A stretch of 32,407 nucleotides of DNA from Desulfobacterales bacterium. Lineage in GTDB: Bacteria > Desulfobacterota > Desulfobacteria > Desulfobacterales > C00003060. Shown here one piece after another: positions 4,487-23,678 of the stretch (the first letter of the stretch is position 1; each line of letters starts with the position of its first letter). The stretch lies in the NCBI GenBank assembly GCA_023129535.1, contig JAGMBW010000028.1:1-32407 (forward strand). The letters are read 5' to 3'. The position numbers and the translations under genes are program-made. Below the pieces are notes generated by a model, which worked only from the letters and a program-made list of their open reading frames with translations, searched no databases and was not told where the DNA came from.

Positions 4487-4535
4487 AATCACTGATCACT
4501 GATCACTGACCACTGACCACTGATCACTAATCACT
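4487..4535. repeat. 7-bp tandem array, seven units of GATCACT/GACCACT
   Basis: Seven 7-bp units, the reverse complement of the array at 1557-1605. The gspD stop codon (cta at 4527-4529 on the plus strand) lies inside it, so the last residues of GspD are array-encoded. Confidence 0.95.
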
Positions 4536-6653
4536 GACTTCTCGACTTTTATACATCTTGATTACACCTTCCTCGATCCTGTCGATTTCATCCTTTTTTT
4601 CTTCAAATATTTTCTTGGCCTCTTCCGGGTTTTCGATGATGTGGGGGGTTAGAAATACGAAAAGGTTGGTCTTATTTTGTGTCTTGGAGACTGATTTAAA
4701 AAACCAACCCAAACCCGGGATATCGCCCAGGCAAGGAACCTTGTACGTTCCCATTTCACTAGTTTCGCCAATAATACCCCCGATAACCACGCTATTAGCG
4801 TCCTTCACAATAACCGTTGTTTCTGCTGATCGCTTGAGTGTAGTTGGTTTGTCTCCCTTCACCTCTCCTTTCAGTTTTATTACTTCTTGAAAGATTTTTA
4901 AGCGAACAAATCTTTCCTGATTAATCTGAGGGGTAACCTTAAGAGTGACCCCCACATCCTTATACTCATAACTGCTATAGTCTCTACCTATCTCCGTTGT
5001 TTCCGCTCTGGTAATATACGGGACATTCTCTCCAACATAAATCTCAGCATCCTCATTGTCAGTTGTCAAAATCTGCGGCGTAGAAAGGATATGCACATCG
5101 GAATCCTTCTTGTAGGCCCGTATTACAGCCCCTATGGTAGGAAACGTAAATTTGCCAATTGTAATCCCTTCACCCAGAACTCCCAACGAAAACCCCCTAG
5201 GGAAGATGGGACTTTTTGGAATGATTTGATACTCACCATATTCTGGTTTAGTTCCTCCAAGCCCACCGGAGCCTATAAAGCCTGCACTTTTTCTGCCATC
5301 ATGACTACCAATTTCTTCCATGGCACGCCACTCCACGCCAAGCGTGAAATCTTTATCCACATTCACTTCCATAATCAGCGCCTCAATATAGACCATCCTT
5401 CGCGGAATATCGAGTTTCTCAATAACATCCAGGAGGACAAGATAGTCGTCCTTATCTGCCCTAATTACCAGGGAATTGGTCGCCTTATCGGACAAGATCT
5501 GGACTTCCTTGGAAATAATGGGCGCTTTTCCCTTTGCGGGCGCTTTTGCCTGTTTGGAAGGGAGGGCCATTAGGACCTTGGCCAGATCTTCGGCATTGGC
5601 GTTCTGAAGATAATATACGTGGATGTCCCCCTCGCCTCGGGGGATTTCTTTGTCCAACAGTTTAATGAGTTGTTTGACCCTTAAAGTATCATCCTCAGTG
5701 GCCGCAATGATCAGAGAATTAGTCCTCTCGTCGGCTACAATCTTGACATCGGGACTCACAGGGACGCCTTTTCTCCGGGGCCGCGCCTTGACCTGAAAGA
5801 CAGGCAACAGCGACTTTACCAAAACCGTTGCCGTGGCATGTTCAATAGGTATCACCGATATCTCTGCACCGATACCCACGACATCAATCACCTTTACTAT
5901 ACGGAGCAGGCGTTTGATATTGGAAAGGACGTCAGTCACAATCAGGATGCCAGTAGGGGCGTATGAGATAATCACACTGCTCTTGGATATCAAGGGGGCA
6001 AAGAGTTTTTTCAGGTCATCGGGGTTGGCATAGTCTAAGGGAATCAGTTGCGTGACCACCTTGTCTTGGGGATCGATAGCCTCCTCGCGCAACCGCGTTT
6101 CAATGTTCTTGGATCGGGCCTGAACCGCCGGGATAATCTTTATCACGCTTCCCGCAGGCACGGTCGTAAAACCGTGCACCTCCAGGACCGATTCAAAAAC
6201 CTTGTACGCCTCTTTTACTGAGATCTTGGTCGGCGAGATAATCGTCACCTTTCCCCTGACTCCTTTATCAACCACGAAATTCTTGCCCGTCAGCTCGCTG
6301 ATGAACTTAATAAAAAGCGCGATATCGACGTTGTCAAAATCGATGGTCACATAACGCTCATCGGTCGCTTGTTCTGCAGGCATTTGTTGCTGACTGGGGA
6401 TCTCCTTTTTAGGAGGTGTTTTCTTTTTCGCTCGGATAAGCTTTTCAGGGGCAGGGGCTTTCCGGGGAGGCTTCACCACCGCAGGCCTCACACCTTCCTC
6501 ACCCGCAACACGGGCACCAAGGGCCACGGAATGACTGGCAAGCAGCCATAGGGCTACGCATAGAAGGGAGAGAATACATTTGAAGATGGAGTGCTGGAGT
6601 GCTGGAGTGCTGGAGTACTGGAGTGGTGGAGTACTGGAGTACCGGGTTTTCAT
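4527..6653 (-). CDS. gspD: Type II secretion secretin GspD
   Basis: The outer-membrane channel of the T2SS. The protein has 708 residues. After a signal sequence come the N0 domain (D-E-R-Y-V-T-I-D-F-D-N-V-D-I), N1 (T-Q-L-I-P-L-D-Y-A-N), N2 (I-S-V-I-P-I-E-H-A-T-A) and N3 (I-H-V-Y-Y-L-Q-N-A-N-A). The secretin barrel follows, with the gate region I-L-S-T-P-Q-I-L-T-T-D-N, V-G-E-N-V-P-Y-I and the closing L-F-V-F-L-T-P-H-I-I. The start chosen is the ATG at 6653, preceded by GGAGGG at a good distance. Between M-K-T-R and the hydrophobic core lie about 18 residues encoded by an 8-bp array (S-S-T-P-P-L-Q-Y-S-S-T-P-A-L-Q), giving an unusually long signal-peptide N-region. The stop is inside a 7-bp array. 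Function is certain; the exact N-terminus is not. Confidence 0.95.
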   Translation of the reverse strand: MKTRYSSTPPLQYSSTPALQHSIFKCILSLLCVALWLLASHSVALGARVAGEEGVRPAVVKPPRKAPAPEKLIRAKKKTPPKKEIPSQQQMPAEQATDERYVTIDFDNVDIALFIKFISELTGKNFVVDKGVRGKVTIISPTKISVKEAYKVFESVLEVHGFTTVPAGSVIKIIPAVQARSKNIETRLREEAIDPQDKVVTQLIPLDYANPDDLKKLFAPLISKSSVIISYAPTGILIVTDVLSNIKRLLRIVKVIDVVGIGAEISVIPIEHATATVLVKSLLPVFQVKARPRRKGVPVSPDVKIVADERTNSLIIAATEDDTLRVKQLIKLLDKEIPRGEGDIHVYYLQNANAEDLAKVLMALPSKQAKAPAKGKAPIISKEVQILSDKATNSLVIRADKDDYLVLLDVIEKLDIPRRMVYIEALIMEVNVDKDFTLGVEWRAMEEIGSHDGRKSAGFIGSGGLGGTKPEYGEYQIIPKSPIFPRGFSLGVLGEGITIGKFTFPTIGAVIRAYKKDSDVHILSTPQILTTDNEDAEIYVGENVPYITRAETTEIGRDYSSYEYKDVGVTLKVTPQINQERFVRLKIFQEVIKLKGEVKGDKPTTLKRSAETTVIVKDANSVVIGGIIGETSEMGTYKVPCLGDIPGLGWFFKSVSKTQNKTNLFVFLTPHIIENPEEAKKIFEEKKDEIDRIEEGVIKMYKSREVSD
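6587..6642. repeat. 8-bp tandem array inside the 5' end of gspD
   Basis: Exactly seven units of TGGAGTGC/TGGAGTAC on the plus strand. It is translated as part of the GspD N-terminus and is followed on the plus strand by the IVP remnant, the same order as at 18643-18760. Confidence 0.95.
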
Positions 6654-6657
6654 CTTT

Positions 6658-6752
6658 CTATCCCTCCATTTCTCCATATGTCGCCCATTCTTCTTTGACC
6701 ATATCATCTATCCAAATCACCCTTATTTCTTTTGTTCTCTAAAGACTTTATT
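6658..6752 (-). pseudogene. 3' remnant of an IVP/S23 four-helix-bundle gene
   Basis: These bases closely match the 3' end of the second IVP gene at 18691-18780. Read in two frames they give S-L-E-N-K-R-N-K-G-D and then D-D-M-V-K-E-E-W-A-T-Y-G-E-M-E-G-stop, against S-L-E-S-K-R-N-K-G-D and M-V-K-E-E-W-A-A-Y-G-E-M-E-G in the longer copy. One small indel separates the two parts and the rest of the gene is missing. Its last codons contain the Shine-Dalgarno used by gspD. The adjacent 8-bp array is also shared with the longer copy, so gene end and array were copied together. Confidence 0.85.
6662..6667 (-). promoter_or_regulatory. Ribosome-binding site of gspD supplied by the IVP remnant
   Basis: GGAGGG on the minus strand, eight bases before the ATG at 6653. 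It is formed by the penultimate codons and stop of the IVP remnant (ATGGAGGGATAG). Confidence 0.7.
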
Positions 6753-6824
6753 ATAACCTTGCAAGAGGAGCATTCCAAAAAAGTATGTAAGATTTACCCC
6801 ATTGCACTTGAAAGCTTTGCATTT

Positions 6825-6865
6825 AAGTTCCCCCCTTTTGTAAAGGGGGGTTAGGGGGGATTTTC
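6825..6865. repeat. Left C-rich inverted repeat of the DUF559 cassette
   Basis: It contains a perfect hairpin, CCCCCCTTT-TGT-AAAGGGGGG (6830-6850), followed by TTAGGGGGGATTTT. Its reverse complement is found to the right of the DUF559 gene. It ends immediately before the stop codon of that gene. Confidence 0.9.
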
Positions 6866-7213
6866 TTACAAGCGCCCATATATCTTATGCAAAACCCCAT
6901 CGATATTCGTGAATATTTCTCTTCCTGAAAACCTTAAGACTTTAAACCCAAGCCTTCCAAGAAAATTATCTCTAATTTCATCCTTTTCTAGTCCCTGTCC
7001 ATGGTAATGTTGACCGCCATCGATTTCAATAATCAGCTTTGCGGCAGGACAATAAAAATCAACAATGTAGTTCCCGATGTTTTTCTGTCTGTAAAATTGA
7101 TAGCCATTAATCTGTTTTCTTCTGATTTTCGCCCAAAGAAACCTTTCCGAATCGGTCATATTCTTTCTAAGTTCTCTTGAACGTTGTTTGAGTTGCTTAT
7201 TGAATGGAAGCAT
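6866..7213 (-). CDS. DUF559 endonuclease-like protein (Vsr-related PD-(D/E)XK fold)
   Basis: A 115-residue protein of the DUF559 family, related in fold to very-short-patch-repair and restriction endonucleases. Residues 8-30 (R-S-R-E-L-R-K-N-M-T-D-S-E-R-F-L-W) are the usual N-terminal signature. The presumed metal-binding core is N-Y-I-V-D52-F-Y-C, then E63-I-D65-G-G-Q-H69, complete for the family. DNA cleavage has not been shown for most members. The gene sits alone between gspD and the gspB-like gene, flanked on both sides by inverted copies of the same C-rich hairpin repeat, and is visibly more A+T-rich than the gsp genes. This looks like an inserted cassette rather than a secretion gene. 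The G-rich tract of the right repeat lies just before its ATG. Confidence 0.9.
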   Translation of the reverse strand: MLPFNKQLKQRSRELRKNMTDSERFLWAKIRRKQINGYQFYRQKNIGNYIVDFYCPAAKLIIEIDGGQHYHGQGLEKDEIRDNFLGRLGFKVLRFSGREIFTNIDGVLHKIYGRL

Positions 7214-7216
7214 CTA

Positions 7217-7290
7217 TAAAATCCCCCCTGCCCCCCTTTTCTAAAGGGGGGTTAGTGGAGATTTTCTCCTTTAAGAAGGGGGGGGAACTC
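7217..7290. repeat. Right C-rich inverted repeat of the DUF559 cassette
   Basis: It starts AAAATCCCCCCTGCCCCCC, has the hairpin CCCCCCTTT-TCT-AAAGGGGGG at 7231-7251, and is followed by a partly degenerate second G-run ending near 7290. It is the inverse complement of the left repeat. A third copy lies inside the gspB-like gene. Confidence 0.9.
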
Positions 7291-7351
7291 ACTACGTTTC
7301 TTGATTCATATGACCTACTTTGCCTGGGGACGTATTTCGTGAGGCTCTCCA

Positions 7352-8137
7352 TTACTCCATTCCTCTATTCCTCCCGACCATTTTTTCAAATCCTGCCACT
7401 CCGCGCAGGTTTTGCAGGTCTGAGTCCGTCCTTGCCCAGTTCTTAACCTCTGGGTCCAGCGAAACTGCTCTGTTCAAATGGTCAAGACTCTGCCTCACGT
7501 TCCCTTTAATGGCATGGAGGCACGCTAAGTTGTAATGAGAGTCCACATAATTCGGTCTGAGCTGAATCGCTTTCAAAAACAATGCACGGGCTGCTGAGTA
7601 CTTTTTGTCTTGAATATATATAACCCCTAAATTGTTTAATGCGTCTACATACTCAGGATCAAGGTCTAGGGCTTCCTCATAAAGTCTTTTAGCTTCCTGC
7701 AAGCGACCACTTTTTTGGAAATCTCTGGCCTTTTCATACAAAGAGGTAGCTGTTGAATTGAGGGTGGATTCATGATTGCTGTGCCTTGTAAAATCCCCCC
7801 CCAGCCCCCCTTTACTAAAGGGGAGAGTTTTTGAAGGCTCCCCTTTACGCCCTTCCCTATTCCCATCGCTCAAGGGAGAGGAAAGTGGGAGGCTTTCTGG
7901 CTTTGGAGTTGCCTCAAGCTCTACGGGTTCAGGAATGGGAGACCGTATCCCTCTGGAGGGTAACCACAAATAGGCCGTAAAAGCAAGCGAGATTACGAGA
8001 AAAGATGCCCACCAAAGCTTTTTGCCAGAAAAAAAAACCGGGTTGTATCGGGGTGCTGACACAATCCCACGGTATTTCTGATAACCGGCGTCTTTTTCTC
8101 TTTGGGCCTTTTTCAGGGCCTCATGGATGGAGCTCAT
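7352..8137 (-). CDS. GspB-like membrane protein with periplasmic TPR domain
   Basis: A 261-residue protein. The N-terminus M-S-S-I-H-E-A-L-K-K-A-Q-R-E-K-D resembles the cytoplasmic start of GspB/ExeB-type proteins. A transmembrane helix follows (about residues 40-58, W-W-A-S-F-L-V-I-S-L-A), then a Pro-rich linker and three TPR units (A-R-D-F-Q-K-S-G-R-L-Q-E-A-K-R, A-L-N-N-L-G-V-I-Y-I-Q-D-K-K, H-Y-N-L-A-C-L-H). It lies directly downstream of exeA, where GspB normally partners GspA in secretin assembly; that role is inferred. An upstream in-frame ATG at 8179 was rejected because the extra residues are encoded by a 7-bp array. The linker segment K-T-L-P-F-S-K-G-G-L-G-G-D-F is encoded by a C-rich repeat insertion. 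Confidence 0.8.
   Translation of the reverse strand: MSSIHEALKKAQREKDAGYQKYRGIVSAPRYNPVFFSGKKLWWASFLVISLAFTAYLWLPSRGIRSPIPEPVELEATPKPESLPLSSPLSDGNREGRKGEPSKTLPFSKGGLGGDFTRHSNHESTLNSTATSLYEKARDFQKSGRLQEAKRLYEEALDLDPEYVDALNNLGVIYIQDKKYSAARALFLKAIQLRPNYVDSHYNLACLHAIKGNVRQSLDHLNRAVSLDPEVKNWARTDSDLQNLRGVAGFEKMVGRNRGME
7790..7850. repeat. C-rich repeat copy inside the gspB-like gene
   Basis: A solo copy of the repeat that flanks the DUF559 gene (AAAATCCCCCCCCAGCCCCCC, then TTTACTAAAGGGG). It lies in the region encoding the linker between the transmembrane helix and the TPRs, without breaking the frame. Confidence 0.88.
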
Positions 8138-8141
8138 CTTG

Positions 8142-8205
8142 GATTGTCGATTGTTGATTGTCGATTGTCGATTGTCCAATAACGAATAACAAATAACAAT
8201 TAACG
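8142..8205. repeat. Two adjacent 7-bp arrays between exeA and the gspB-like gene
   Basis: Five GATTGTC-type units (8142-8176), one spacer base, then four AATAACG/AATAACA-type units (8178-8205). The first array ends four bases from the gspB-like start codon, the second four bases from the exeA stop. Confidence 0.9.
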
Positions 8206-11970: not shown

Positions 11971-12075
11971 TGGAGTACTGGAGTATTGGAGCACTGGAGT
12001 ATTGGAGTGTTGGAGTGTTGGAGTGTTGATTTTTCATTACTCCATTACTCCATGACTCCATGACTCCATGACTCC
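11971..12075. repeat. 8-bp repeat element with inverted arms (gspN-gspM gap)
   Basis: A textbook example of the family: left arm of seven TGGAGTAT/TGGAGTGT units (11971-12026), a spacer of about nine bases, and a right arm of five ATTACTCC/ATGACTCC units (12036-12075). The arms are inverse complements and could fold into a long hairpin in RNA. Confidence 0.95.
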
Positions 12076-12084
12076 TTTCCCCAC

Positions 12085-12600
12085 TCACTGAAACGTCAAT
12101 ACCTGAATAATGGCATCCAAATAGCCCGGCTCCTTTTTATTTCCGCTAATGGAAATGCGTTTGATGTTTACTAAATCACCCGGTGATTCAATACGATAAA
12201 GGTATCCGACCAACTCCTCCAAAGTAATTGCTTCCAATCGCATCTCAACCATGGATTCTTTGTAAGGACCCTTGCCAGACGAGACGGAGGGTTTCATAGA
12301 CTTGATACGGGCCTTCACCTGAGCCTCACCGGCAGCCTTTTCAAGGAATGAAAAAAGCGTAAATCCCTTTTTTCGCCTGGAAAGGGTCTGCTGTATGCCT
12401 TGAGAACCTTTCTGGTAAGCCTGAAACTCAGCCCTCAGCCTTACGATCTCCTCCAGCCCCTTTTCCTTGGCCTTCAGGCCCTTTTGAATACGCGTTCTGT
12501 TTTCAAAAAAGGGAAAGATCAGAAACTGAAACACTAAGAAAATGGCTATGCAGCATGCTGCAAGCGATATCAAATATTTTTCACGTTTTGCCAGCTTCAT
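12085..12600 (-). CDS. gspM: Type II secretion protein GspM
   Basis: The 171-residue inner-membrane partner of GspL. The N-terminus is K-L-A-K-R-E-K-Y-L-I-S-L, then a transmembrane helix (about 11-30), a helical coiled-coil segment (about 35-70) and a C-terminal ferredoxin-like domain (E-M-R-L-E-A-I-T-L-E-E-L-V-G-Y-L-Y-R-I-E). The ATG is separated by three bases from a 9-bp array, with no Shine-Dalgarno. The gene overlaps the array-encoded tail of the IVP gene by 20 bases, so translation may be coupled to it. Confidence 0.92.
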   Translation of the reverse strand: MKLAKREKYLISLAACCIAIFLVFQFLIFPFFENRTRIQKGLKAKEKGLEEIVRLRAEFQAYQKGSQGIQQTLSRRKKGFTLFSFLEKAAGEAQVKARIKSMKPSVSSGKGPYKESMVEMRLEAITLEELVGYLYRIESPGDLVNIKRISISGNKKEPGYLDAIIQVLTFQ

Positions 12601-13057
12601 TTTTGTGTTCGTTGTGTCTGTTGTGTTCGTTGTGTTCGTTGTGTTCGTTGTGTCTGTTGTGTTTGTTGGGTTTGCTTTGTCCGCGTGTTTTCTGATTGCG
12701 CAGGAGATAGGTAATTAGGCCGGAATCCAGTTTAGAAACTTTTTCGGCTTGCTCATAGATGCAACGGAAGATTTTCTCGGTCAGATATTCTTGATCCAAA
12801 GCCACGTAGGCTTCACTCTGGACTTCCGTCGCCGAACTCTTTGATATGAAAAGATACTGAATAAACTCCTTGTCCCATCTCCGAGAAAAGCCCTCTGCTA
12901 TGTTACTCATCGAAGATATCGCTGCACCAGTAATCTGCCCACACAATCTAAAATCCTTTTGAAAATCCTTGCTCGCTTTTATTGCCTCATAAACAAGATT
13001 CACTAATTTCCGCGCTTCCTGCCAGCAATGTAAATCCTCAAACCTCTTAATTTTCAT
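12581..13057 (-). CDS. Four-helix-bundle IVP/S23-family protein, inserted between gspL and gspM
   Basis: A 158-residue member of the four-helix-bundle family first known from proteins encoded in 23S rRNA intervening sequences. The start at M-K-I-K-R-F-E-D-L-H-C-W-Q-E-A-R was chosen because that is the conserved family beginning; an upstream ATG adds only Leu-Gly residues from a 9-bp array. The family core S-S-M-S-N-I-A-E-G-F-S-R-R lies at about 52-64, followed by the E-F-I-Q-Y-L helix and a K-S-S-A-T-E-V-Q-S-E motif. The last 30 or so residues (H-N-E-H-N-E-H-N type) are encoded by another 9-bp array. Function outside rRNA is unknown. It interrupts the otherwise conserved gspL-gspM pair and both ends are repeat arrays, so it appears to be cargo of a repeat element. 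Confidence 0.85.
   Translation of the reverse strand: MKIKRFEDLHCWQEARKLVNLVYEAIKASKDFQKDFRLCGQITGAAISSMSNIAEGFSRRWDKEFIQYLFISKSSATEVQSEAYVALDQEYLTEKIFRCIYEQAEKVSKLDSGLITYLLRNQKTRGQSKPNKHNRHNEHNEHNEHNRHNEHKNEAGKT
12604..12675. repeat. 9-bp array, left arm next to the gspM start
   Basis: Eight units of TGTGTTCGT/TGTGTCTGT. On the minus strand it encodes the His-Asn-rich tail of the IVP protein and ends three bases before the gspM ATG. Confidence 0.95.
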
Positions 13058-13062
13058 GTTCA

Positions 13063-13144
13063 ACCCACTCAAACCCAATAGACCCAATAGACCCAATAGA
13101 CTCAATAGACCCAACAGACCCAATAGACCCAACAGACCCAATAG
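13063..13144. repeat. 9-bp array, right arm between the IVP gene and gspL
   Basis: About nine units of ACCCAATAG/ACCCAACAG. In orientation it is the inverse of the 12604-12675 type, so the IVP gene lies between two opposing 9-bp arms. It ends three bases from the gspL stop. Confidence 0.95.
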
Positions 13145-13147
13145 ACG

Positions 13148-14692: not shown

Positions 14693-14765
14693 CGGAGTAT
14701 TGGAGTACTGGAGTGTTTTATTCTTGTTTTTCCATTACTCCATTTCTCCAATTCTCCATTTCTCC
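14693..14765. repeat. 8-bp repeat element with inverted arms (gspL-gspK gap)
   Basis: A short left arm of GGAGTATT/GGAGTACT units (14693-14716), a T-rich spacer, and a right arm of ATTACTCC/ATTTCTCC units ending at the gspK stop. Confidence 0.92.
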
Positions 14766-15939: not shown

Positions 15940-16710
15940 CTACCCTTGCCCCATTGGAAGCGCAACCTTTGTCAAGAATCTAAAGGGCGTATCAGGATCT
16001 GACTTATTTTCAAATTCGAGTAATATGGAAACCATTTGTGGTATCCTGTCCTTGAAAGCCTCGGTTGTAGAATCCCAGTTATCGTGCTCTTCACCCTCGG
16101 CGTCATGATAGGTGAAATTTACCGAGCGCAGTTTCTCGCAAAGGACCAATCCGCCGGTGTCTTCGCCGGAGGCTTCTATACCCCCCGGGGCGTCTTTGCG
16201 ATACAACACAAGACCCTCTTCCGCATCATTCTCAGCAGCATAATAACCTATCTCGGCTGTTCCAGAAGCTTGCTCTTGCTCGCTGAAGACAAGGTGCGCT
16301 CTGGAGATAAAGCGAAGGGAGTCGGCACTGCTGCCTTTGATCTCCATATCCTCGCCTACGAATTCAAAGACCTGACCGCTGTCCTCCTCTGATTTGGAGG
16401 ATTTCAGATTCCTTGGAATGTAAACAGACTCTAAATCTTCCTGCATTCTTTCCAGGGCAATCCGGGCCATTCTGTAAATATCAGCCTGATGTTCGGTCTC
16501 ATCCACGATGCGAAAAGTTCCGGTATAAGAGGTATAGATTGTGGAAAGAACAATGGCAAAAATGAACATGGCGATGAGGATTTCTACCAGGGTAAAACCT
16601 TTTGGGTTTGTTGGGTTTGTTGGGTTTGTTGGGTTCGTTGTGTCCATTGTGTCCGTTGTGTCCATTGTGTCCATTGTGTTCATTGAGTTTATTGACTTCA
16701 TTGTGTTCAT
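15940..16710 (-). CDS. gspJ: Type II secretion minor pseudopilin GspJ with array-encoded leader
   Basis: A minor pseudopilin of the tip complex. The processed protein begins at F-T-L-V-E-I-L-I-A-M-F after K-G, with the conserved Glu at +5, and its body (Y-R-M-A-R-I-A-L-E-R-M-Q-E-D-L-E, L-R-F-I-S-R-A-H) fits the family. Everything before K-G is encoded by a 9-bp array: T-M-D-T-T-N-P-T-N-P-T-N-P. Six in-frame ATG codons occur in this stretch and none has a Shine-Dalgarno, so the true start cannot be fixed; the longest frame is given. A start at the last ATG would leave a leader of about 17 residues. Because the unit is 9 bp, gain or loss of units keeps the frame. Confidence 0.9.
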   Translation of the reverse strand: MNTMKSINSMNTMDTMDTTDTMDTTNPTNPTNPTNPKGFTLVEILIAMFIFAIVLSTIYTSYTGTFRIVDETEHQADIYRMARIALERMQEDLESVYIPRNLKSSKSEEDSGQVFEFVGEDMEIKGSSADSLRFISRAHLVFSEQEQASGTAEIGYYAAENDAEEGLVLYRKDAPGGIEASGEDTGGLVLCEKLRSVNFTYHDAEGEEHDNWDSTTEAFKDRIPQMVSILLEFENKSDPDTPFRFLTKVALPMGQG

Positions 16711-16953
16711 TGGCTTTGTTGGGTCTATGGAGTCTATTGGGTCTATTGGGTCTATGGAGTCTATTGGGTCGATGGAGTCTGTTGAGTCTATGGAGTCTAT
16801 TGAGTTTATTGGGTCTATTGAATTTATTGAGCTTATTCAGCTTGTTCAGCTTGTTTGGGTTTTAACACAAGAGACACAATGAACACAACAAACACAACGA
16901 ACGGGAGCGTAGCGACCACACACAACAGACACAACAGACACAATAAACGCAAT
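16602..16953. repeat. Large 9-bp repeat element spanning the gspJ start and gspJ-gspI gap
   Basis: The left arm runs to about 16858 and has over 25 units drifting through TTGGGTTTG, TTGTGTCCA, GTCTATTGG and GTCTATGGA. The right arm (16865-16953) has ACACAATGA/ACACAACAG units interrupted at 16901-16917 by GGGAGCGTAGCGACC. It is the biggest array in the window. Confidence 0.93.
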
Positions 16954-17364: not shown

Positions 17365-17404
17365 TGGTCTTTGCTCGACAATCGATTCATCCCCTCCACA
17401 TACA

Positions 17405-17498
17405 GTAATGGAGTAATGGAGTGCTGGAGTAATGGAGTAATGTATTTCGGGGAACAAAGATTTTTTGTATTCAATACTCCATTGCTCCATTACTCCAA
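17405..17498. repeat. 8-bp repeat element with inverted arms (gspH-gspI gap)
   Basis: The left arm is GAGTAATG/GAGTGCTG units (17405-17442), then a spacer of about 30 bases, then a right arm ACTCCATT/GCTCCATT (17472-17498). On the minus strand the right arm reads GGAGTAATGGAGC, a ready-made ribosome-binding site plus ATG. Confidence 0.93.
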
Positions 17499-17503
17499 CC
17501 TAA

Positions 17504-18160
17504 TCATTCAATTTCCACATATCTCTCAAAAACTTTGACTCTTCCCAGAAAAGGACTCAGCACCAGGGTAAATTCCCTGCCATCTTCTGCCGCAAGATGA
17601 ATCGCTGATTGTTCGATGTAACCCTTCTTAGTAAAATGGATGGTCGCCTCTCCATCGACCTCCTTGCCCCTTGCCCTGGACCAAACATCCATTATGGTAA
17701 CTCCCTGTGGGAGCTGGAATGCTTTTTCGAAAGCGAGCGCCCGTCCTTCATCTGTCATGTCCGCCGACTCTATCCAAAACCGGTTCGACTCAAGGTCGAA
17801 ATGAAGCCTGTACTTCGTTTGCTCCCGGATTGCCTCATTTTTCAAGTTCCTGACGGTCCCGACGACTCGCCGTACAGTGCCCTTCAGGTCATCGGTCAAC
17901 ATGGCATAACGAAATTTCGGAACAGTCCAGACCAGTGTCAGCCCGATTAGAAAGATAACAACAGTTAACTCGATGAAGGTGTAACCTTTGCCGTTCCGGT
18001 TCAACTCAGGGTGTAACCGTTCACGGAGTGTTGGAGTAATGGAGTGTTGGAGTAATGGAATATGCGAAAGAACAAGAATACGCGTATCAAATAGATTTTG
18101 AATTGCCGAATGAAAACCCAAAATCCAGGATCGAAGGGCTCCAATACTCCATTGCTCCAT
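17504..18160 (-). CDS. gspH: Type II secretion pseudopilin GspH with uncertain start
   Basis: A minor pseudopilin. The processed form starts at Y-T-F-I-E-L-T-V-V-I-F-L-I-G-L after N-G-K-G, with Glu at +5. The body (A-I-R-E-Q-T-K-Y-R-L-H-F-D-L, I-H-F-T-K-K-G-Y-I-E) fits the GspH domain. The only in-frame ATG is at 18160, inside an 8-bp array, giving M-E-Q-W-S-I and a leader of about 60 residues, far too long for prepilin peptidase substrates. A TTG at 18004 would give a six-residue leader but has no clear Shine-Dalgarno. The repeat element probably displaced the original start. Coordinates give the longest frame. Confidence 0.87.
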   Translation of the reverse strand: MEQWSIGALRSWILGFHSAIQNLFDTRILVLSHIPLLQHSITPTLRERLHPELNRNGKGYTFIELTVVIFLIGLTLVWTVPKFRYAMLTDDLKGTVRRVVGTVRNLKNEAIREQTKYRLHFDLESNRFWIESADMTDEGRALAFEKAFQLPQGVTIMDVWSRARGKEVDGEATIHFTKKGYIEQSAIHLAAEDGREFTLVLSPFLGRVKVFERYVEIE

Positions 18161-18177
18161 TACTCCATTACTCCAAA
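18025..18177. repeat. 8-bp repeat element with inverted arms (gspG-gspH gap)
   Basis: The left arm is TGTTGGAG/TAATGGAG units (18025-18060), then an 80-base spacer, then a right arm of ACTCCATT/GCTCCATT units (18139-18177) that touches the gspG stop codon. The element reaches into the 5' part of the gspH reading frame. Confidence 0.92.
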
Positions 18178-18642: not shown

Positions 18643-18677
18643 ATGGAGTGCTGGAGTATTGGAGCGCTGGAGTATTG
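18643..18677. repeat. 8-bp array, left arm of the IVP cassette in the gspF-gspG gap
   Basis: Four units TGGAGTGC/TGGAGTAT. It is followed on the plus strand by the IVP 3' end, the same order as at 6587-6752. It pairs in orientation with the right arm at 19149-19183. Confidence 0.93.
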
Positions 18678-18690
18678 GCTTTTCATTACT

Positions 18691-19153
18691 CTATCCCTCC
18701 ATTTCTCCATATGCCGCCCATTCTTCTTTGACCATATGATCTATCCAATCGCCCTTATTTCTCTTGCTTTCTAAAGACCGTATCAGTCTTATAAGTTCGT
18801 TCTCGACTTTGTAACAGAAGGAATCGAGTTTCTCGAACTCTTCATCAGAGATAAGATGCCCTGCTTTGGATGCAAAAAGTCCTGATACGGTTTCACCAAG
18901 TGAAGCAAGGGCAACATAGAGGAATTTGGATATATTCACGAATAGAACGGCGGCAATAGCCCTCCGCGATGTTCCGGTGTATAGAATCCGCACCAGCCAT
19001 TTGTTGACTTGCTATCTTTTTGAATTCAAAAGGAAAACCCTTGAATTCTTCCAAAATCATAGTGTGCAACAAAATGGCATCTTGCCACACACGCAACTTT
19101 TGATAGCCACGATTCAAGTTGTATCTTGTTGTGTTCTCGAACTTGTTCTCCAT
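18691..19153 (-). pseudogene. Four-helix-bundle IVP/S23-family gene with one-base frameshift
   Basis: A second member of the IVP family. The first part begins M-E-N-K-F-E-N and contains Y-Q-K-L-R-V-W-Q-D-A, Q-M-A-G-A-D-S-I-H-R-N-I-A-E-G-Y-C-R-R. The second part, in another frame, continues F-L-Y-V-A-L-A-S-L-G-E-T and ends M-V-K-E-E-W-A-A-Y-G-E-M-E-G. Removing one base from the T-run at 18925-18927 (an A-run on the coding strand) restores Y-I-Q-F-L-Y-V-A-L-A-S, so the two parts join into one family protein of about 150 residues. The break could be a true mutation or a sequencing error. Both ends are enclosed by opposing 8-bp arms, and the right arm supplies the GGAG and ATG of this gene. Confidence 0.88.
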
Positions 19154-19183
19154 TACTCCACCACTCCATTACTCCAATACTCC
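19149..19183. repeat. 8-bp array, right arm of the IVP cassette
   Basis: Units ACTCCATT/ACTCCACC/ACTCCAAT, inverse complementary to 18643-18677. It lies just downstream of gspF on the minus strand. Confidence 0.92.
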
Positions 19184-22550: not shown

Positions 22551-23678
22551 ATGAACAGATCTAAGTTCGTCATAATTTGCTGCATTATTCTGGGGGTCAT
22601 GCTTTTAGTTTTGCCCTTTTCTGCTCATGCCGCTCAAAAGATCGGAAAGATCACAAGACTCACAGGCACAGCGGAGATACTCCGCGAAGGTATTCCAAGC
22701 CCGATTACTGTATCCGTGGGGATACCCGTTCAACTCCGTGATTTGATTGAGACCGGTGCAGATTCCAACCTTCGTATTGAACTTATAGACGGCAGCATTC
22801 TGAGCGTGGGTGAAGAGGCGGATCTCGACTTAGCTGAATTTGAATTCGACCCTGACGAGAAGAAGCGGAGCGCCCTCTTTGGAATGGACATAGGTAAAGT
22901 TCGCGTTTTTGCCAATGATCTTGTGGCCTTTAGACAGCGTGACTTTAACATCAAGACGCCCACGGCTGTCTGCGGTGTGCGGGGCACCCTGTTTTTGGTG
23001 TGGGTTAAATCAAAAACCATTACGCGGGTGGTTACCTTCGATAAACCGGTACATGTTGCCAATATACAAATGCCTGAAAAGTTTGTAGTTCTCACAAAAA
23101 ACTTACTAACCGATATCAAGAAAGGCAAAGTACCTACCAGACCGGTTCTTGCCACTCCGGAGATGCTCAGAGAATTACGAAAAGGGCTTGAAGAGGCGCC
23201 GACTGCTCCAGCGACTACAGAAACAACGGAGACGACGGAGGAAACTACGACCGAGGAGACCACGACAGAGGAAACGACTACCGAGGAGACCACGACAGAA
23301 GCAACTACCACTGAGGAGACTACTACCGAGGCTACAACAACGGAAGAAACTACTACTGAGGCTACTACGACTGAAGCTACCACAACGGAAGCAACGACTA
23401 CTCAAGCCACGACAACTGAGGCCACCACAACGCAAGCCACAACGACTACTGAAACAACGACAACCACGGCAGCAACTACAACTCTGCCTCCAACCACGAC
23501 TCAAGCTACTACGACGACAGCTCCAACCACAACAACTACAACTACTACGACAACGACCACAACAACGACGACCACAACAACGACGACCACGACGACGACC
23601 ACAACAACGACGACAAGTACATTTACGACAACGACCATACCTCTATCAACACTGCCGGAACCTCCGGGGACGCCTTAG
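22551..23678 (+). CDS. FecR-domain protein with long Thr-rich tail
   Basis: A 375-residue exported protein, ATG preceded by AAGGGG. The signal peptide is about 28 residues (V-M-L-L-V-L-P-F-S-A-H-A-A). Residues about 35-175 form a FecR-type domain: I-G-K-I-T-R-L-T-G-T-A-E-I-L, L-R-D-L-I-E-T-G-A-D-S, G-S-I-L-S-V-G-E, I-K-T-P-T-A-V-C-G-V-R-G-T. There is no sigma-factor partner or inner-membrane helix, so it is more likely a periplasmic or surface FecR-like protein than a signalling anti-sigma factor. From about residue 220 the chain is T-T-T-E-E and T-T-E-A repeats and then an almost pure Thr run, ending L-S-T-L-P-E-P-P-G. Such tails are often O-glycosylated stalks in surface proteins. Confidence 0.85.
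   Translation: MNRSKFVIICCIILGVMLLVLPFSAHAAQKIGKITRLTGTAEILREGIPSPITVSVGIPVQLRDLIETGADSNLRIELIDGSILSVGEEADLDLAEFEFDPDEKKRSALFGMDIGKVRVFANDLVAFRQRDFNIKTPTAVCGVRGTLFLVWVKSKTITRVVTFDKPVHVANIQMPEKFVVLTKNLLTDIKKGKVPTRPVLATPEMLRELRKGLEEAPTAPATTETTETTEETTTEETTTEETTTEETTTEATTTEETTTEATTTEETTTEATTTEATTTEATTTQATTTEATTTQATTTTETTTTTAATTTLPPTTTQATTTTAPTTTTTTTTTTTTTTTTTTTTTTTTTTTTTTSTFTTTTIPLSTLPEPPGTP
23215..23640 (+). repeat. Coding repeat: Thr-rich tail of the FecR protein
   Basis: About 140 codons, mostly ACN with GAA/GAG, GCN and CAA interspersed. The protein repeat is strong but all four Thr codons are mixed, so the DNA repeat is weak. Only short stretches, such as ACA-ACA-ACG-ACG-ACC, recur exactly. 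Confidence 0.9.

Follow-up and report, generated by a model that had tools for sequence, protein, structure and literature searches.

A probable remnant of a mobile IVP element with inverted repeat arms at the start of the secretin gene gspD

An IVP gene remnant and a tandem array lie at the start of gspD

The window analysed here, the whole 32,407-nucleotide stretch of contig JAGMBW010000028.1 from a Desulfobacterales bacterium (assembly GCA_023129535.1), carries an operon of gsp genes in which gspD, encoding the secretin of a type II secretion system (T2SS), follows a TPR gene (7352-8179). At the start of gspD lie the 3' remnant of a gene for an IVP (23S rRNA-intervening-sequence protein) and an 8-bp tandem array within the gspD frame, and a broken IVP gene of the same subfamily, its halves on two overlapping open reading frames (ORFs), is found at 18.7 kb (Table 1). 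BLASTN within the window aligned 6657-6746 with the 3' end of that gene (18690-18778) at 92.2% identity over 90 columns (E 2.4e-32), with a local score of 143, whereas no score at 1945 other places in the window exceeded 34. The two sequences stay in register across the spacer and on into the array, with 118 of 135 positions identical between 6611-6746 and 18644-18778, in agreement with the original prediction, made from the letters of the window, that an IVP gene end adjoins the array here. We refer to the source genome of the window (98% complete) as the own genome, which together with 21 relatives (G001-G021) forms a genus set of 22 genomes. A 411-base probe from the 18.7-kb IVP gene (18715-19125) recovered at E<=1e-3 in these 22 genomes itself, 6682-6746 and the gspD junction of G020, and no place beyond those three. 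On the far side of the remnant, a second 8-bp array overlaps the TPR gene, covering its last codons and stop, and is split from the remnant by an insertion (6747-7346) that is missing from the same junction in G020 and G005.

The array probably forms part of the GspD reading frame

The sequence GGAGGG, formed by the last IVP codons, lies 8 nt upstream of the in-frame ATG at 6653, as had been predicted. The next in-frame ATG, GTG or TTG is the GTG at 6527 (codon 61), beyond the signal-peptide core; all three frames are open across the array (6587-6640), and because the stretch from the array to codon 61 is free of in-frame ATG, GTG and TTG codons, the array is probably translated into GspD. In relatives without the element, GspD starts about 7-15 residues ahead of the hydrophobic core, as judged by eye, and this comparison reveals a displaced start, which upholds the earlier claim that an insertion altered the beginning of gspD. 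The G020 bin contains a second, array-free gspD-like copy, which may come from another strain and which begins MERIPRHLLC, compared to ..LQHPIPRHLLC in the array-bearing copy, suggesting that the native ATG was lost at the edge of the right arm. This array-free copy (L285, contig C450) has no TPR gene upstream in the stretch covered.

Elsewhere in the operon, the 5' part of the gspJ ORF (16602-16943) is a 9-bp array that reads in frame up to a prepilin cleavage motif (NPTNPTNPTNPKG-FTLVE; PKG-FTLVE), so that the entire GspJ leader peptide appears array-derived; this array may be translated as in gspD.

The TPR-gspD junction in related genomes

We compared the TPR-gspD junction in 15 genomes, the own genome included; the series leaves out G001, G007, G010, G012, G014, G018 and G019, in most of whose assemblies gspD is partial or missing. 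The own junction consists of left arm, DUF559 cassette, IVP 3' end and right arm, that of G020 of a left 8-bp arm, an IVP 3' part and a right arm, and that of G005 of 8-bp arms only. A residue of three units is left in G002, whereas G009 carries an inverted CACGAAAG pair, G015 an inverted 9-bp pair and G017 other inverted repeats (seen by eye); no such array pair is present in the remaining 8 of the 15 genomes (G003, G004, G006, G008, G011, G013, G016 and G021). The TPR frame terminates inside the left array in the own genome (..RGME), G020 (..GGME) and G005 (..GGME). Three further junctions, exeA-TPR, gspL-gspM and gspM-gspN, show a comparable turnover, with some species devoid of arrays and others carrying different array families, and here the arrays sit between stop and start codons.

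Taken as a whole, the gspD feature is likely to be the right half of a decayed mobile IVP element that once lay between inverted arms. Such an element would consist of an IVP gene, encoding a four-helix bundle of the PF05635/TIGR02436 family and oriented in sense with the host operon, between mirror-image arms, in many cases built as arrays of 7-9-bp units. Because the arms are mirror images, they could pair in the transcript as the stem of a long hairpin with the IVP frame inside, an arrangement known from the intervening sequences (IVSs) of 23S rRNA. An ancestor of the own species and G020 would have received the element between the TPR gene and gspD; the insertion would have removed the native gspD start, and translation would now proceed from the ATG at 6653 behind the GGAGGG of the IVP tail, with the right arm serving as the N-region of the signal peptide. 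The original prediction had held that IVP gene end and array moved as a unit: both do belong to one unit, but that unit is an IVP gene between two inverted arms rather than a gene end plus a single array.

Two other accounts of the gspD junction have to be weighed. The first, which takes up the original prediction, is that a 3' IVP piece together with one array was copied from 18691 and placed ahead of gspD, or else that sequence passed between these own copies at a later time. Both copies lie in one operon, they share 87% identity over 135 columns in register, and over 6657-6746 the own remnant agrees with 18691 at 83 of 89 positions, compared to 79 of 89, with extra gaps, for G020; this slightly greater closeness counts against common descent with G020 and makes a sequence exchange within the own genome possible. 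However, a same-subfamily insertion with both arms sits at this very junction in G020, the left arm persists in the own genome at 7347-7374, and a 28-base IVP stretch (TAATAAAGTCTTTAGAGAACAAAAGAAA) is identical between the own remnant and G020 and differs in 18691. Because the place, the left arm and these 28 bases are common to both genomes, we favor an old shared insertion, probably a single, sense-oriented ancestral event that decayed differently in the two lineages, and hold a transfer from 18691 to be improbable. The other account concerns translation, which might initiate at a non-standard codon just past the array and thus leave the array as an untranslated leader. Near-cognate ATC and ATT codons do follow the array, and the GspD start proposed here is read from DNA sequence, which does not fix a start codon. 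Set against this are the lack of in-frame ATG, GTG and TTG codons between the array and codon 61, past the hydrophobic core, and the G020 and G005 arms, which likewise lie in the gspD reading frame behind upstream ATGs. Initiation past the array thus seems rather unlikely to us, if a little less so than a transfer from 18691.

Most IVP genes lie between inverted arms

PF05635 has 18 matches in the own genome and between 0 and 19 in each genome of the genus set, and from their listing we used full-length or near-full-length matches, leaving out most short fragments. A first genus set comprised 43 IVP loci (L092 and L099 of 45 were dropped for short flanks) with an arm length of 200. The inverted-arm score had a median of 42 for a locus's own arms and of 16 for swapped arms, and 39 of the 43 loci reached at least the 99% level of 500 random windows. 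The own partner was the best one in 29/43 loci, the inverted orientation beat the direct one in 38/43, and the observed sum of arm scores was reached by none of 10,000 permutations. In an enlarged genus set of 91 loci (one of 92 dropped for a short flank; arm length 130-160), 80 exceeded the random level with scores of at least 24. Arrays that passed the shuffled 99% level were present in both arms at 49 of the 91 loci and in at least one arm at 76, and where both arms were arrays their periods were equal in 48 of 49 cases, mostly at 7 bp. Beyond the genus, IVP was detected at E<=1e-10 in 104 of 198 genomes sampled from the phylum, and among 29 phylum loci outside the genus (arm length 180-200), 26 reached the 99% control level and 16 had their own partner as the best. 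Strict arm-to-arm matching within a subfamily was rejected, the same-subfamily swap test having given a weak excess only.

The IVP gene was co-directional with both neighbors at 53/64 genus loci, 59/63 loci from named genomes and 20/28 further phylum loci, counting loci with both neighbors callable and taking, crudely, the longest frame in each flank as the neighbor. When compared to shuffles, the 18.7-kb IVP element (z -6.2) and the G020 gspD element (z -5.05) fold unusually well, and all four folded array pairs of the operon that lack an IVP also fold better than shuffles (Table 1).

Among the loci, L011 (1280-2014) and L012 (1325-2044) are near-duplicate IVP elements, each between two tRNA genes. 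In L015, the IVP frame runs from 1501 rightwards without a stop through the right-arm array into a longer protein (414-residue open frame), the added part of which resembles a substrate-binding protein by eye.

Closely related IVPs mostly share a repeat unit

We asked how often two IVP loci share their repeat unit, after removing 21 of 4095 pairs whose outer flanks were alike; since at most ~530 bases of flank were compared on each side, the set may still include some orthologous loci. Non-orthologous pairs shared the unit in 38/38 cases above 80% protein identity and in 60/71 cases at 60-80% (98/109 at >=60%), compared to about 1-4% of pairs below 50% identity, a pattern reached by none of 999 permutations. 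Pairs taken from a single genome, which cannot be orthologs, share the unit in 16 of 21 cases at >=50% identity.

Subfamily types named by their unit include GTTATT, GATTGTC and the 9-bp TTGGGTCTA. For the GTTATT subfamily we collected 68 loci from named genomes (4 of the 68 appear identical to genus loci already counted), with records from Desulfobacterales, other Deltaproteobacteria, Scalindua, Ignavibacteriales, Aminicenantes, many Bacteroidetes and Patescibacteria, including Magasanikbacteria. Their left arms contain GTTATT 85 times and AATAAC 19 times, while their right arms contain AATAAC 131 times and GTTATT 6 times. By eye, the loci of Scalindua, Ignavibacteriales and Aminicenantes contain GTTATT, as do many of those from Bacteroidetes. 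The word is still the commonest hexamer common to both arms among 53 loci below 55% identity (25/53), and none of 87 genus IVPs from other subfamilies has it in the left arm. Since its spacing is mostly 7 or 8 bp, the word appears to be kept more than the period. Together, these patterns suggest that an IVP recognises its own unit in RNA or DNA.

Array counts were made as overlapping matches, so that one long array counts many times (contig C217 of G020 alone contributes 16). For TGGAG they amount to 196 in the own genome, 237 in G020 and 107 in G003, and for GTTATT to 63 in G020, 45 in the own genome, 27 in G017 and then 20 in G008. A GTTATT-type IVP is present, among the IVPs fetched, in four genomes, G020, own, G017 and G003, the last of which (unit GGTATT) has 4 matches. 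We dropped the idea that array number depends on a live gene, given the abundance of TGGAG arrays without an intact gene found and the overlapping nature of the counts.

Relation to known systems

Structures of the IVP family have been solved (2GSC, 2RLD), and we know of no function for the family outside rRNA. The elements resemble the 23S rRNA IVS in that an IVP-family frame lies within terminal inverted repeats folding into a stem (PMC4990558); a PF05635/TIGR02436 protein and such repeats around its frame (80/91 genus and 26/29 phylum loci) are both present here. The same source describes heptameric repeats (GACAGAT) just upstream of the IVP frame in the IVS of Coxiella burnetii. In contrast to the rRNA IVS, the elements found here lie in protein-coding operons, with up to 19 IVP matches per genome, and many of their arms consist of tandem arrays with a unit that follows the IVP subfamily. 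In an Rfam search, neither the window nor 16 other IVP loci of the own genome gave an rRNA match; L011 and L012 showed only tRNAs.

RAYT systems likewise pair a protein gene with its own inverted repeats, which are also dispersed without the gene and match it in a subfamily-specific manner, and the IVP elements share all three features. A relative of IVP in fold is Avd of the diversity-generating retroelements, which need a reverse transcriptase; no RVT_1 match is present in the own genome. REPIN/RAYT systems (PMC3116915, PMC2817692) use a tyrosine HUH transposase and REP palindromes, whereas the IVP is a four-helix bundle and the repeats are tandem arrays mostly of 7-9 bp. The IVP genes of the window have PF05635 matches only and encode no Y1 HUH transposase. 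The elements are thus set apart from the IVS by their location outside 23S rRNA and from REPIN/RAYT by the lack of an HUH transposase.

Intergenic tandem heptamers, TAACTGA among them, have been described near start codons in several phyla, with 169 sets made of direct repeats of one unit and one indirect repeat (PMC4679880); the terms S23, four helix and intervening do not occur in the main text of that paper. PMC5041132 was set aside as an S23-related paper, its "S23" being a figure number. In the open-licence PMC literature, which does not cover subscription papers, we recognised no paper linking IVP/S23 genes to genome-wide arrays, save for the Coxiella heptamers. By analogy, the anatomy may be likened to an rRNA IVS placed in mRNA and the pairing of protein and repeat to REPIN/RAYT. 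We class the element as a variant of the IVS kind.

Signs of movement and competing explanations

Clearer signs of movement than the gspD copy come from two other cases. IVPs of 75% identity, both with 9-bp arms, lie at gspL-gspM in the own genome and at exeA-TPR in G005, and the right end of an IVP-derived element has 52 matches in G003 (<=3 mismatches; two overlap), compared to one in G006 and none in the own genome, with no match for a reversed control pattern. In the G003 loci (L231-L237), similarity between copies breaks off at the same base in five right ends and in three left ends; the right end is palindromic, and sharp ends of this sort were seen, by eye, for the G003/G006 subfamily only. 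The five G003 copies with an IVP fragment and a right end, which were chosen as fragmentary PF05635 matches, lack the middle of the IVP, while G006 retains a full-length copy with both ends. This multi-copy G003 family is MITE-like. Movement dependent on reverse transcriptase was rejected on the RVT_1 search of the own genome (98% complete), which returned zero.

Two alternatives bear on the elements at large. The arrays could be ordinary simple repeats made by slippage, with IVP genes adjacent by chance or site preference, as heptamer repeats have been proposed to be slippage-prone (PMC4679880) and arrays at one junction differ between species. This explanation is already disfavored and strikes us as very unlikely, given that the two arms match in inverted orientation with agreeing periods (48/49) and that related IVPs at unrelated loci share units, also across phyla. 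The ends of the G003/G006 element resemble those of HUH transposons, which makes mobilisation in trans by Y1 enzymes a serious rival: HUH transposases of the IS200/IS605 or RAYT-like kind would move the elements via their hairpins, with the IVP as cargo or RNA protector. Elements like IS200/IS605 have defined ends that bear subterminal hairpins and lack terminal inverted repeats. Y1_Tnp matches occur in 20 of the 22 genus genomes, G003 included, and Y1 genes are found elsewhere in the own genome; the G003 family, with its sharp ends, palindromic right end and many right-end matches, is what such a mechanism might leave. Yet G007, a 96% complete genome, contains 6 IVP matches but none to Y1, sharp ends are confined to one subfamily, and the pairing of IVP subfamily with unit fits recognition by the IVP itself. 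We regard Y1 mobilisation as possible, though not the likelier course.

Several observations are unfavorable to the explanation preferred here. Neither movement nor an enzyme for it was found. At the genus loci, 11 of 91 score below 24 and 42 of 91 have no clear array in one or both arms; when arms are swapped within a subfamily, the own arms are only slightly better (127/204 swaps; 42/66 loci). Unit sharing drops to 7.5% of 53 pairs at 50-60% protein identity, the GTTATT word is present on the left in 37/68 and on the right in 44/68 loci, and Patescibacteria and some Deltaproteobacteria members carry other words by eye. For the TGGAG arrays, the cognate IVP gene carries a frameshift in the own genome and no intact copy was found in the 22 genomes; as TGGAG matches are abundant all the same, array abundance does not track a live gene. 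Finally, the gspD right arm alone shows no unusual folding (z -0.5), and the stem at gspD is broken up.

With these points in the balance, we put forward, as a proposal about as likely to hold as to fail, that IVPs are sequence-specific partners of short-tandem-repeat arrays and that an IVP with inverted arrays constitutes an unrecognised, multi-phylum minimal mobile element spreading in sense between operon genes; orphan heptamer-nonamer arrays, known ones included, would be its non-autonomous derivatives and the rRNA IVS a special case. The link of subfamilies to array units gives the IVP family a testable role, and the same link points to where the puzzling heptamer arrays seen in many genomes could come from. 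At gspD, we may be seeing how an element of this sort takes over the beginning of a core operon gene and then persists in more than one species.

Other features of the window

Table 1. Features of the window around the gspD junction and the further IVP and array loci of the operon
Feature	Position	Strand	Evidence or remark
gspD (T2SS secretin)	4527..6707	-	in-frame ATG at 6707, 6677 and 6653
Right (3') arm, 8-bp array, within gspD frame	6587..6640	-	consensus ACTCCAGC, 6.8 copies
IVP gene 3' remnant	6657..6746	-	alignment to 18690-18778
Later insertion within the element	6747..7346	.	DUF559 ORF and CCCCCTTT..AAAGGGGG-type repeats; limits approximate, by eye
DUF559 ORF, 115 aa	6866..7213	-	PF04480, E 1.5e-37
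Left (5') arm of TPR-gspD element, 8-bp array	7347..7374	-	aligns 37/44 with G020 left arm, same junction
Inverted array pair without IVP, gspM-gspN	11971..12075	-	hairpin, z -7.2
Open IVP ORF at gspL-gspM	12581..13141	-	9-bp arms 13073-13146 and 12603-12672
Inverted array pair without IVP, gspK-gspL	14694..14765	-	z -4.8
Inverted array pair without IVP, within gspI ORF 5' part	17404..17497	-	z -5.8
Inverted array pair without IVP, gspH ORF start	18032..18175	-	z -5.0 (for 18020-18160)
Right arm, 18.7-kb IVP element, upstream of gspG	18644..18678	-
Frameshifted IVP gene, subfamily as gspD remnant	18691..19153	-	N half 18893-19153, C half 18691-18993
Left arm, 18.7-kb IVP element	19148..19183	-	own-arm inverted score 42, best of 43 partners

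The DUF559 ORF is bordered by CCCCCCTTT..AAAGGGGGG-type repeats at 6820-6860 and 7219-7280, and together with them looks, by eye, like a second kind of small repeat-flanked cassette; another copy of this repeat type, also noted by eye, lies at 7790-7830, inside the TPR gene and in frame. At exeA-TPR (8142-8204), the arms are chimeric, the left one being of the GTTATT family and the right one of the GATTGTC family, and chimeric arm pairs, in which GTTATT is paired with AAATCC-type units, are also found at this junction in G009 and G020. A long tandem coding repeat (23232-23616; periods of 15, 30 and 45 bp, Thr-rich product) forms the end of the ORF at 22551-23678.

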